Shown piece after piece: positions 8,944 through 14,073 of a stretch of DNA of 48,480 nucleotides. The stretch's first letter is position 1. The number at the start of each line of letters is the position of its first letter. Both the position numbers and the translations under genes were made by a program. The DNA is from Spirochaetota bacterium (GTDB lineage: Bacteria; Spirochaetota; UBA4802; UBA5550). Location: positions 1 through 48,480 of the forward strand of contig WRGT01000068.1 of the NCBI GenBank assembly GCA_009787025.1, written 5' to 3'. Below the pieces are notes generated by a model. The model was not told the origin of the DNA. It did no database searches and worked only from the letters and a program-made list of their open reading frames with translations.

Positions 8944-10050
8944 ATGGAAAAAATAAAGATTCTGCTTATATCCGATCTTCATCTTGGTATGGAACATGTA
9001 AATCCTATAGTTTCAAAAGAGGAGAGATTAAATACTTTTGATAAAATAATCTCAATCGCCAATGACCATGATATTATACTTATAGCAGGAGATTTAATTA
9101 ATGATGAAAATATTGATAGTACATATTTTGATATTTTAAATGAAAAATTTTTATCTCTAATTAATAGCGGCAAGGAAATTTTTTATACGCCCGGTGATGG
9201 GGAACTGACATCACAAGATAATATTAATCCTTCAATATTAAAGTTAAATACAACATTTACTTTTTCAGATGATAAGGGCTCCATGATAAAATCGTCTAAA
9301 GGGGACATATTCATATATGGATTATGGAGTAAAAATCCGTCTAATGAATGGGATATTGTAAGGTCAAATGATAATGGATTTCATATAGGTTTGTTCTATG
9401 CAGATTTTAATCCGCAAATTAATAATTTTCCGGATAAGTTCAGTATTAAAAAGGACAACATAAAAAAGATGAATCTTGATTTTTATGCTCTTGGGAAAAA
9501 TCATATCTTTAAAATGTTCAAATTTTACAATAAAATTATTGGCGCATATCCGGGAAGTTCGGAATCATGCTCAATTGATGAGAGCGGCGACAGATTTGTT
9601 ATTTCAATGGAATTAGAAGACAGAGAACTGCAAAATATTAGGAGAATTGCTGTTAATAGCAGCAAAGTATTGAGCGATGAGATAGACTGCGGTTATATAT
9701 TTAATCAGGCAGATCTCCTTGAAAAGATTAAGTCGAGCTATTCTGCTGATAGTATAATACATATTACACTTAGCGGCGATAGAGATTTTATGATAGAGAG
9801 TAATTTTATAACCGAAATTTCAGAATTTTTTAGAGACGCAAAGATAACCGATATATCAATTCCGTCTTTAAACGCGATGATTGAAGAGAATATTGGCAAC
9901 GATTCGTTAAAAGGTATATTTTTTCAGATACTAAATGAAAAAATTGATAAGAGCGCATCTAATAAAGCTGATAATGAAATACTTGCCGAAATTATTTTTC
10001 AAGAGAGCAGGAACAGTAAGAGTGAGGGGGTTGTGCTTTGCGATTTTTAA
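8944..10050 (+). CDS. Mre11/YhaO-like metallophosphoesterase, probably catalytically degenerate
   Basis: A 368-residue protein with the layout of SbcD/Mre11/YhaO nucleases. The first two metal motifs are intact: SDLHLG (Asp11, His13) and AGDLIN (Asp50). The third, normally GNHD/E, reads PGDGE (84-87), losing the Asn and catalytic His. The fourth, normally GHxH, reads ALGKNH (184-187), losing the first His. The internal His-bearing strand (HIGLFYADF, 147-155) is also changed. The C-terminal capping region keeps the AYPGSSESCSI pattern of Mre11-type proteins. It overlaps the next, YhaN-like gene by 13 bases. The family acts in DNA end processing; with so many ligands lost, a structural role is more likely than nuclease activity. 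Confidence 0.8.
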   Translation: MEKIKILLISDLHLGMEHVNPIVSKEERLNTFDKIISIANDHDIILIAGDLINDENIDSTYFDILNEKFLSLINSGKEIFYTPGDGELTSQDNINPSILKLNTTFTFSDDKGSMIKSSKGDIFIYGLWSKNPSNEWDIVRSNDNGFHIGLFYADFNPQINNFPDKFSIKKDNIKKMNLDFYALGKNHIFKMFKFYNKIIGAYPGSSESCSIDESGDRFVISMELEDRELQNIRRIAVNSSKVLSDEIDCGYIFNQADLLEKIKSSYSADSIIHITLSGDRDFMIESNFITEISEFFRDAKITDISIPSLNAMIEENIGNDSLKGIFFQILNEKIDKSASNKADNEILAEIIFQESRNSKSEGVVLCDF

Positions 10051-12086
10051 ATCTTGAGATGACCTCTCCGAATATTGATGATGTTAAGATTGAATTCAGC
10101 GAAGGTGTGAATGTTATCTCAATTTCAGATGAAAAATTATTTAATCTTTTTAAATATTTTCCAATTGCAGGACTATATGGGTCGCAGCAGAAAGAACTAA
10201 GCCAAGATGCAAAAGAGATTTCATCAACTATAAATATTTTATCCTCTACTCTTGGGCGGGAGATGAGTTTCGTAAACAATAATGGAGAAGTTGTAATAAA
10301 AGAGCCGGAACACCCCGATGACAAAATTTTTAAGAAAGAGAATAATCAATATAATAATCAATATGAGGAAGATTTTAAAAATATATACACAATCGAAAAT
10401 TTTATTATATCATCTTATTATTCTACTGACTTAGAATTTAATAATATTGATCCGGTTTTTGAGAAAGATAAGATTAAAGAGTTATTAATTAAAAGCGAAA
10501 TCGGGAGACTTAAATTTCCATATTTTATGCGCAGAGAGAAACTCCTGTCATCTAAAGAGAGAGAACTTGTTGATCTTGAAAAAGAGAAGCAGCTCCTTGA
10601 GTTAAAAAAAATCAAAAAAGAAAAAATTCTAAAGGAGATACAAGCATCAGAAAAAGATATATCGAAGCTTGAAAAGAGGAGAGATTCAATACTTAATTAT
10701 AAAAAAACACTAAATGAAATCATTGAACAGATAAATAAGAAGGATAATATTTCATCTAAGATCAATAATCTAAAAAAGGATATTATTGAATTAAAATATA
10801 TAAAAGAGAAAATAGCATCTGCTGAAGATATCATAAGTGAAAGATTTTCACACTTTTCAAAAAAAAACGGAGAGCAGCTTCCGGATCTGGAGCTTATACA
10901 GCAGTCATTTAATTCATTCAGAGATATAAATGAACAGATAGATAATTTATCTATTAGAAAAAAAAGATATGCTGCATGGGCTATAAAGATAATGTCCTCT
11001 CTGGCTATTTTTTCTTTAATAGCGCTTATGTTTCTGCTTTTTACGTTATCTGCATCACCGGCTTATCTAATATTAACATTTATATCAAGCATATCAGCAG
11101 GCGCTGCAGTACTTGCTGCTTTGGTTTATTATTTTAAGGCTAAAAGATTAAATCCGGCTGAACTTTTAGACGAGAAGGATAAGCTGGAGAACACTTTGAT
11201 TGATATATTTAAAAAAAATGATTTTCCGGTTGATGATTATAAAACTGCTGAACTATATGAAATTTTATTTCAATACTTTGATGATTTTATAACTTTCAGA
11301 GATATAAATAATGAATTAACATCACTTAGAAAGAAAAAATCAAATACTACAGATCTTACCGGTAAAGAGAAAGAACTTGAGCAGTTTATAAGTGAAATGA
11401 AAGAACTTGATAAGGTTATTGTTAAGACAATCAACAGCCTTGATATGTCTATCAATCCTTTACCTGCGCAGGAAGATATAACAAGAACTGTTCATGATAT
11501 TGATGAACTGTTAGAAGAGAATAAAACCGAAATTAATAAAAAGAGTTCACTTATAGAAAAATTTCAAGAAGAGATTGATGCGTATATTAGAGATGAAAAA
11601 GATTTACTCTCTTCGGATATGATATTGGAAGAGGCTGTTAAGCATATTAATAATTTAACAGAGGAGATTAAGCATATAAAATTTTTAGATGGAATTTTTA
11701 ATGAAGCAATAGAGAAGTGGAGTAAAGATAAATTAGAGAAATTATCATATACGGTTATAGAAAAAATAATAAAAATTACAGATAATTCATATACAAAAGA
11801 AAAGCTTAGCGATATTATCAAAAATATCCTGATGAATTACGGCGAACCAAAAGAGGAATATATGGAGTTAAAGCCGTATATTTCATTTGCAATAAAGTCA
11901 GCGCTTTCGGAACAATTGAATCTTACGCCTCTCCCGCCTGTATTTTTGATAGACCCCTTTATTCCGGATAATGAATTTTCTATGAATATGAAAAAATTAT
12001 TACCTGAATTTTTTCCTAATAGACAAGTAGTTGTAATAATAAATAATATTGACCAAAATATCAATGGGAATTTAATAACTCTTTAA
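10038..12086 (+). CDS. YhaN/SbcC-like coiled-coil membrane protein lacking Walker A
   Basis: A 682-residue partner of the phosphoesterase, starting at a TTG with GAGGGGG 7 bases upstream. Its plan matches YhaN-type ATPases: an N-terminal lobe, long coiled coils (about 165-310 and 375-520), two membrane segments between them (about 311-370) and a C-terminal lobe. The N-terminal lobe keeps the framing strand FSEGVNVISI, but the following P-loop (GPNEAGKST in relatives) is replaced by SDEKLF, with no GK[ST]. The C-terminal Walker B region survives as PPVFLIDPFIPDN with one acidic residue changed, followed by QVVVIINN. ATP binding by the usual mechanism is unlikely. The pair may be a membrane-tethered scaffold derived from a repair complex. 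Confidence 0.78.
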   Translation: MRFLNLEMTSPNIDDVKIEFSEGVNVISISDEKLFNLFKYFPIAGLYGSQQKELSQDAKEISSTINILSSTLGREMSFVNNNGEVVIKEPEHPDDKIFKKENNQYNNQYEEDFKNIYTIENFIISSYYSTDLEFNNIDPVFEKDKIKELLIKSEIGRLKFPYFMRREKLLSSKERELVDLEKEKQLLELKKIKKEKILKEIQASEKDISKLEKRRDSILNYKKTLNEIIEQINKKDNISSKINNLKKDIIELKYIKEKIASAEDIISERFSHFSKKNGEQLPDLELIQQSFNSFRDINEQIDNLSIRKKRYAAWAIKIMSSLAIFSLIALMFLLFTLSASPAYLILTFISSISAGAAVLAALVYYFKAKRLNPAELLDEKDKLENTLIDIFKKNDFPVDDYKTAELYEILFQYFDDFITFRDINNELTSLRKKKSNTTDLTGKEKELEQFISEMKELDKVIVKTINSLDMSINPLPAQEDITRTVHDIDELLEENKTEINKKSSLIEKFQEEIDAYIRDEKDLLSSDMILEEAVKHINNLTEEIKHIKFLDGIFNEAIEKWSKDKLEKLSYTVIEKIIKITDNSYTKEKLSDIIKNILMNYGEPKEEYMELKPYISFAIKSALSEQLNLTPLPPVFLIDPFIPDNEFSMNMKKLLPEFFPNRQVVVIINNIDQNINGNLITL

Positions 12087-12092
12087 TAACCT

Positions 12093-13088
12093 ATGGATAA
12101 CAATGGACAACTAACATTTTCCGATGACCCTCTTTTAAGAGAAAGCGCAGAAGTTTATCAATCTATCTCAGAGGGGAACTTTAATGAGGCAGCTAAGATT
12201 GCTGACCAATTGATGAATATTAATCCCGATTATCCCGGATTAGTTGAAGCGTATAGAACGGCAAAATTTTGGTCTAATAGAGAAAAAGAGATTAAGACGA
12301 TTGGAGATGGTAAAAAGGCTGCCGACTTTTTGATGAAGGAGTGGAATGTCTTTGAAGATTATGCATCCTACAAAGATATGAAATCGTCCTCAGCTTATAA
12401 ATCTGCAATGAGATATATCTTCTTCAAAGCGTCAGAGCAGTACAAAATTGCTTTTAAACTCAATGAAGAGACTGATAATGACTTTGAACTTCTCATAAAT
12501 CTTGGAGAATGTTTTCTTAGATTAAAGGAATATAAATATGCAATAGAGACGCTTGAGTATGCCATGTCATCATACAAGAGTGATGCCAAGCTCCTTTTTA
12601 TCTTAGGCGAATCTTATTACCACATTGATGACATACCTAAATGCCTGCTATATATGAGAGAGGCGTTTCAAATAGATCCTTCGCAAATAGATATTACACT
12701 CATTGAGGCTAAGCCTATTCTTGAAATTATTGAAGCAGTTAAAAGCAGCGGCAGGAATATAAAGGATATAAGAGAATGGATACCTGTTTTTGGCTGTTTA
12801 ACCGACATATTTTATGTAAGAAGAAATCTGAATAAACATCAGATTGAATCGCTTAAACTGGAGGTCTTTAATCTTGAAAAGGGTTTAAGCACGCTCAGCA
12901 GCGATGATATTGAAGCGACAAATATTATCCCAAGGCTGTTAAATAAATACCTTTGGCTTCTTGATTATTATGAGCATCAGAATGTTAATGTTGAAAACAG
13001 CGATGAGATAAAGAACAGACTCCTCTCCCTTGATAAAGACCTTTTTGAGGAGTTTTTTAAAAAGACTTTTTTACACAAGAAATATTGA
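12093..13088 (+). CDS. TPR-repeat protein
   Basis: A 331-residue soluble helical protein, third gene of the phosphoesterase/YhaN-like operon (7-base gap). Tetratricopeptide-like repeats are clearest at about 22-55 (SEGNFNEAAKIADQLMNINP) and 130-205 (LLINLGECFLRLKEYKYAIE, then LLFILGESYYHIDDIPKCLLY, ending FQIDPSQ). TPRs mediate protein-protein contacts, so it may be an adaptor for the two upstream proteins; no catalytic motif is seen. The C-terminal third is helical with an unassigned fold. No signal peptide, so probably cytoplasmic. Confidence 0.78.
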   Translation: MDNNGQLTFSDDPLLRESAEVYQSISEGNFNEAAKIADQLMNINPDYPGLVEAYRTAKFWSNREKEIKTIGDGKKAADFLMKEWNVFEDYASYKDMKSSSAYKSAMRYIFFKASEQYKIAFKLNEETDNDFELLINLGECFLRLKEYKYAIETLEYAMSSYKSDAKLLFILGESYYHIDDIPKCLLYMREAFQIDPSQIDITLIEAKPILEIIEAVKSSGRNIKDIREWIPVFGCLTDIFYVRRNLNKHQIESLKLEVFNLEKGLSTLSSDDIEATNIIPRLLNKYLWLLDYYEHQNVNVENSDEIKNRLLSLDKDLFEEFFKKTFLHKKY

Positions 13089-13269: not shown

Positions 13270-14073
13270 ATGTACAAAAAGTTAAAATATCAAATTTATT
13301 TATTACTTGATCCCGCCCAAGAAGATAGAAGATGGGAAAAGATAATTGATTATTTGCTTGAAACATTAATCTTTCTAAACATCATTGCTGTAATAATAGA
13401 AACGGTTGATGCTATTTATAATTCATATAAGTTGTATTTTAATGTATTTGAGAAAATATCAGTATATATTTTTACACTTGAATATCTTCTGCGATTGTGG
13501 GTTTGTACAAACGAAGTAAAATATAGCGCCCCGGTTTTGGGGAGAATAAAATATATTTTTTCGTTAAGCGCATTGGTAGATTTGCTTGCCATTATGCCTT
13601 TTTATCTGCCATTCACAAATATTGATTTGCGCATTGTGCGTATTTTGCGGCTGTTTAGATTTTTGCGGATATTCAAATTGGGCAGGTATTTGAACGCTAC
13701 TAAATTGATTGCAAGCGTTTTTAAATCTAAGAAAGAAGAATTGATTTTGTTTTTGTTAATTACTATATCGCTAATAATTGTAGCTTCGAGTTTTGTTTAT
13801 TTTGCCGAGAATCAGGCGCAGCCGGATAAATATTCGAGTATTCCGGCAACTATGTGGTGGTGCGTAACAACACTCACAACCGTAGGCTATGGCGATATTT
13901 TTCCTATAACACCCATTGGGAAAATTTTAACTGCGGTAATTGCCATTTTGGGACTTGGAATGTTTGCGCTGCCTGCGGGTATTTTGGCTTCGGGATTTTC
14001 AGACGAATTTCAGAAAAGAAGACAGCATAAAGAAAAAAATATTTGCCCGCATTGCGGAAAAGAAATAGAATAA
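13270..14073 (+). CDS. Voltage-gated potassium channel (Kch-type)
   Basis: A 267-residue ion channel of the six-helix voltage-gated class. S1-S3 lie at about 29-115; S4 carries five arginines at three-residue spacing (Arg121, 124, 127, 130, 133), the voltage sensor. S5, pore helix and S6 span about 157-240, with the selectivity filter TTVGYGD (203-209), which is specific for K+. The cytoplasmic tail is short and ends with CPHCGKEIE, half of a zinc-ribbon-like knuckle. No Shine-Dalgarno is obvious before the ATG. Codon use looks less AT-biased than its neighbours, and it stands alone before two secreted-protein genes, which may indicate acquired DNA. Confidence 0.93.
   Translation: MYKKLKYQIYLLLDPAQEDRRWEKIIDYLLETLIFLNIIAVIIETVDAIYNSYKLYFNVFEKISVYIFTLEYLLRLWVCTNEVKYSAPVLGRIKYIFSLSALVDLLAIMPFYLPFTNIDLRIVRILRLFRFLRIFKLGRYLNATKLIASVFKSKKEELILFLLITISLIIVASSFVYFAENQAQPDKYSSIPATMWWCVTTLTTVGYGDIFPITPIGKILTAVIAILGLGMFALPAGILASGFSDEFQKRRQHKEKNICPHCGKEIE

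Follow-up and report, generated by a model that had tools for sequence, protein, structure and literature searches.

The window analysed here is a 48,480 nucleotide (nt) stretch, positions 1 to 48,480 of contig WRGT01000068.1 in assembly GCA_009787025.1, from a Spirochaetota bacterium (GTDB lineage Bacteria; Spirochaetota; UBA4802; UBA5550). It carries three consecutive genes, referred to as D, N and T, which encode an Mre11-like protein, a Rad50-like coiled-coil protein and a tetratricopeptide repeat (TPR) protein, respectively (Table 1). D and N overlap by 13 nt and T starts 6 nt after N. An earlier note, made from the sequence of the window, had described these genes as a pair with the architecture of YhaO/YhaN and a TPR partner. 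This architecture and the coordinates of the three genes are borne out, as D has the Mre11 fold, N is of the Rad50 type, and the two form an adjacent, overlapping pair.

Table 1. Features of the D-N-T locus, by position in the window, and loci of T outside the window's order (aa, amino acids; ABC, ATP-binding cassette)
Feature	Position	Strand	Description	Basis
D	8944..10050	+	368 aa; Mre11/SbcD (YhaO)-fold, degenerate active site	AlphaFold2 model and Foldseek
Phosphoesterase motif I, SDLHLG	8971..8988	+	D11 and H13 are first-metal ligands, kept	
Motif III position	9190..9204	+	PGDGE (residues 83-87); intact relatives PGNHD	
Motif IV position	9397..9399	+	Tyr152; active enzymes have His	
Motif V	9493..9504	+	GKNH (184-187) for GHxH; second His (H187, first metal) kept	
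N	10038..12086	+	682 aa; YhaN/Rad50-type ABC-head and coiled-coil membrane protein; TTG start	Foldseek best match Rad50
Former Walker A position	10122..10145	+	Relatives have GKNGSGKS	
Membrane hairpin	10989..11126	+	Hydrophobic helices at N residues 318-336 and 345-363	
Order-specific membrane-proximal motif, LYEILFQYFDD	11250..11285	+	N residues 405-416, about 40 residues past the second membrane helix	
Former ABC signature position	11862..11882	+	MELKPYI here; CGAEEQL in outgroup	
Eroded Walker B region	11934..11978	+	PPVFLIDPFIPDNEF here; LPLIIDDPFLFMDDER in relatives	
T	12093..13088	+	331 aa TPR protein; best conserved of the trio; phylum-wide in Spirochaetota	
N-terminal stretch of T, GQLTFSDDP	12105..12131	+	Near-invariant; several T proteins outside the order have GQLTFEDDP or similar	
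T beside the GreA-fused protein of about 900 aa	L142:3281-6963; L143-L155, L157		Loci outside the order, including Borrelia- and Treponema-like genomes	

Pfam Metallophos matches D in its first quarter only (E 1.6e-6) and the NCBIfam models for SbcD/Mre11 match weakly. The AlphaFold2 model of D (mean predicted local distance difference test score, pLDDT, 86) contains both the phosphoesterase and the capping domain of the Mre11 fold, its best Foldseek matches are solved Mre11 proteins (E 6e-14), and DNA-bound Mre11 entries are matched along the length of D. Motifs I and II (DxH and GD) are present as SDLHLG and AGDL, and the ligands of the first metal (D11, H13, D50 and H187) are all kept. At the second metal site the ligands are gone, and their positions are taken by D85, Y152 and K185, of which D85 is the sole new acidic residue; G86 stands at the position of the catalytic His. 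The earlier note had read PGDGE for GNHD/E, GKNH for GHxH and no Walker A in N, all correctly. Its description of the pair as non-catalytic holds for the lost catalytic residues, but as four first-metal ligands remain, a single bound metal is possible in D. Separately, Cys249 (9688-9690) and the near-C-terminal Cys366 (10039-10041) of D are found in about 90-98% of the order and are mostly absent from intact relatives.

Sequence-based family searches matched N to no ATPase family. Rad50 was the first Foldseek match of its structural model (E 2e-9), with other heads resembling structural maintenance of chromosomes (SMC) proteins next. The model and these matches point to an ABC head interrupted by a long coiled coil, at low global confidence: pLDDT is 77 and the predicted template modelling score (pTM) 0.47, so only the local shape is reliable. 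Walker A, the ABC signature (LSxGxxxQ) and the His-loop are absent from the window's N, and Walker B is eroded. The two membrane helices noted earlier are present but are no novelty, since one or more hydrophobic segments lie at the hairpin site in all order members and in the intact outgroups G056, G068 and G078, making the hairpin ancestral rather than new.

To place these changes, 59 genomes, including that of the window (G000), were searched for D and N, with family and genus groupings as supplied by the search tool; D was present in 44 and N in 41. Of 41 loci fetched from the window's order, 40 had the trio contiguous and in the same gene order, the exception being a contig that stops at D. 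As the same trio is found throughout the order, it is not a chance arrangement; the genes flanking it vary from family to family. Identity to the window across the order was 24-62% for D and 43-79% for T. A scan of public genomes returned clear relatives solely in metagenome-assembled genomes, nearly all titled Spirochaetota.

GNHD is lost in all 42 of the order's D proteins and intact in all 12 used for comparison, which came from outside the order or were canonical paralogues within it. The ABC signature shows a similar split: none of the order's N proteins with sequence in that region (masked in G042) has it, and the closest outgroups, G056, G068 and G078, retain a recognisable CGAEEQL; the closest intact relatives outside the order have no T nearby. 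Most other families keep the first His of GHxH, which is missing from nearly all members of the window's family; losses of the second metal site of D also fell mostly within that family. Most of the order has Walker A intact; the seven genomes that have lost it (G000, G001, G002, G009, G010, G014 and G016) form one clade with 100/100 support in a tree built from D and T, the N columns being excluded. The groups of this tree match the families, which points to vertical descent. On these alignments the losses are layered, with GNHD and the signature lost first and order-wide, and Walker A later and once. The loss of catalytic motifs, which the earlier note had proposed to check in related genomes, is thus real but was made up of several events, and most relatives retain Walker A. 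Family f3 (loci L107 and L110 of G026 and G038, and L106 and L109 of G021 and G030) followed its own route of erosion, on long branches: its D proteins have given up even motif I and the GD aspartate, and its N proteins retain Walker A.

A rival reading is that D is still an enzyme with a changed site, acting as a single-metal phosphoesterase in the window or, in most other families, through a two-metal site with Glu in place of Asn84 (metal-ligand positions follow the Mre11 numbering of Pyrococcus furiosus). The complete set of first-metal ligands in the window is in keeping with this, as are the many relatives in which the remaining His ligands are kept and Asn84 is replaced by an E that might bind a metal. 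We nevertheless consider it unlikely, given that the catalytic His85 position is replaced in 40 of the 42 order members (exceptions G031 and G033), that the window has Y at H173 and K at H206, and that the operon of family f3, without motif I and the GD aspartate, is still under selection.

Several trio-bearing genomes also encode a separate canonical SbcD, hence the trio is not the sole SbcCD-like machine in them, and we rejected the idea that it replaces the normal SbcCD. No second SbcD was found in the window genome, an assembly that is only 74% complete.

The ratio of nonsynonymous to synonymous substitution rates (dN/dS), estimated for close pairs by the Nei-Gojobori method, was low for all three genes. 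Between G014 and G016, which lack Walker A, it was 0.109 for D, 0.169 for N and 0.010 for T, and between G026 and G038, which have lost motifs I and III, the respective values were 0.112, 0.052 and 0.010. Other unsaturated pairs gave 0.09-0.19 for D, 0.11-0.21 for N and 0.045-0.064 for T. For the window's own pair (G000 and G001) D and T were saturated, and the value of 0.20 for N rests on a dS of 2. By this measure D, N and T are kept under purifying selection and are not decaying, and the earlier view of the trio as maintained is upheld by this selection, by the conserved operon and by the lack of frameshifts. That the trio is the decaying remnant of a repair operon could be argued from the loss of several catalytic motifs one after another and from the fast divergence of N (15-48% identity to the window across the order). 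We reject this reading as extremely improbable in view of the full-length frames in relatives, dN/dS values well below 1, a nearly invariant T, the retained translational overlap and the gain of a motif.

This gained motif is the best conserved stretch of N. Residues 405-416 have a mean entropy of 0.90 bits, compared with 2.67 +/- 0.23 bits (lowest 1.96) for other 12-mers of the coiled coil, 1.28 bits for Walker A and 1.13 bits for Walker B. The consensus, YExLLQYFE(D/E)Y (YExLxQYFED in short form), is absent from the intact outgroups, and the window's N keeps the motif although its Walker A is gone. A second conserved patch, FPQF followed by NLxxIQ, lies at residues 271-288, ahead of the first membrane helix. 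The loss of catalytic motifs, a change of neighbour and the gain of a conserved site coincide on the stem of one order, and this coincidence favours repurposing over decay. The new role suggested in the earlier note is well supported as an inference by the order-specific motif in N, and what follows on the nature of that role is conjecture.

The main rival to a scaffold holding T is a complex that still acts on DNA structurally: it would make no cuts but bind or bridge DNA ends, or the nucleoid, at the membrane, and T would be an adaptor. Mre11-Rad50 has tethering roles besides that of a nuclease, the match of the D model to DNA-bound Mre11 would suit such a function, and the membrane hairpin would provide a tether between nucleoid and membrane. 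However, engagement of Rad50 heads on DNA normally requires ATP and the signature motif, whereas here Walker A and the signature are lost, and the strongest conservation of N is at the membrane end, not the head. We regard this alternative as conceivable but rather improbable.

An SMC-like anti-phage defence module, similar to Lamassu, was also considered. PADLOC profiles for LmuB match two relatives (G012, E 7.5e-14; outgroup G056, E 1.2e-20), and the N model resembles SMC subunits of Lamassu, among others. Yet an LmuA-like effector is missing, the match of LmuB to the window's N is only 1e-4, neither D nor T has a PADLOC match, and the trio descends vertically with nearly constant gene content. 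As the Rad50-type (SMC) fold is shared, the similarity to LmuB is explained by that fold, and we rejected a defence system as very improbable.

The TPR neighbour proved to be a stable member of the trio but not one specific to the complex. A profile of T matches 261 of 296 Spirochaetota genomes, although the weak matches may be generic TPR proteins. Outside the order, T occurs together with a protein of roughly 900 residues in 15 of the 17 fetched loci, adjacent in 14 and with one gene between them in one. Tests on two copies, one Borrelia-like and one from the window's own genome, place this neighbour in the GreA-fused family NF011309. The switch of T from one neighbour to another thus appears to date to the ancestor that also saw GNHD and the signature disappear from D and N. 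In three order members with draft assemblies (G007, G013 and G036) the long GreA was found but none of D, N and T, reflecting either joint loss or an assembly gap.

From homology and fold, from when and where motifs were lost, from selection and operon linkage, and from the motif gained by N and the gene beside T outside the order, we propose that a YhaO/YhaN-type complex has probably, if by no means certainly, been turned into a non-catalytic, membrane-tethered scaffold built around T. D and N would derive from a working Mre11-Rad50 complex of the YhaO/YhaN type, with the apex of the coiled coil anchored in the inner membrane by the helical hairpin. In the common ancestor of the order the pair would have lost the catalytic GNHD and the ABC signature, formed its link to T and gained the conserved motif at the base of the N hairpin. 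D and N may since have served as a platform, T being held by the membrane-proximal motif of N or by a reshaped surface of D, and T would in turn join this platform with a client, either the long GreA-fused transcription factor that is T's ancestral partner or a different one. N would have dispensed with ATP binding as well in the clade of the window. Absence of catalysis, formation of the complex, binding of T to N and any link to transcription are what we infer from this arrangement. In its most specific form, which we offer as a speculative and fairly unlikely version, an order-wide, vertically inherited pseudo-Mre11-Rad50 devoid of nuclease and ATPase activity would serve as the membrane anchor for T and tie the machinery of transcription to the membrane.

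Several points weigh against the proposed scaffold. Weak or altered activity of D is possible with all first-metal ligands kept, and ATP binding may still be relevant outside the window's clade, since Walker A and Walker B persist in the greater part of the order. Even the nearest intact outgroup is remote, its D (G056) being about 22% identical to that of the window. No long GreA lies near the trio in the order, the gene sitting elsewhere in the genome (G000:C30 in the window genome), and the link to transcription, which comes solely from gene neighbourhood in other orders, is a lead.

Downstream of the trio, positions 13270-14073 of the window encode a voltage-gated-type ion channel (Pfam Ion_trans), which shares no cluster with the downstream genes of relatives. 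No RNA element or tRNA was found near the trio. A promoter scan gave 39 promoter-like sites, compared with 27 +/- 4.5 after shuffling, and is uninformative, the stretch being AT-rich.

Mre11-Rad50 is among the most conserved repair machines. The stepwise loss of catalytic motifs from a membrane-bound version of it throughout an order, under strong selection and with the gain of a conserved site, may be seen as a natural experiment in the passage from enzyme complex to scaffold. T and the 900-residue GreA fusion also deserve attention, being found across spirochaetes, Borrelia- and Treponema-like genomes among them; the open-access literature yielded no dedicated study of this pair and nothing on the trio, T or T's GreA neighbour.

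One of the known systems closest to the trio is YhaO/YhaN (SbcEF) of Firmicutes, which resembles it in architecture, an Mre11-type protein being followed by a Rad50-like coiled-coil protein with membrane helices in its coil. The window's trio differs in its lack of catalytic motifs, its TPR partner and its order-specific membrane-proximal motif. SbcEF has been implicated in double-strand break repair and is poorly characterised in the literature (PMC6452273). The intact D-N pairs of other Spirochaetota (G056, G068 and G078) have the same two genes at similar lengths (N of 713-718 aa) and the same membrane hairpin, but their GNHD, GHxH, Walker A and ABC signature are intact, no T lies alongside and YExLxQYFED is missing. 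With SbcD/SbcC and Mre11/Rad50 the pair shares the Mre11 fold of D and the Rad50 head and long coil of N, and it differs from them in having no second metal site, Walker A or ABC signature. Unlike Lamassu, the trio has no LmuA effector. Finally, the operon of T and the long GreA (NF011309) in other Spirochaetota contains a T of the same protein family, whereas in the window's order T follows D and N.

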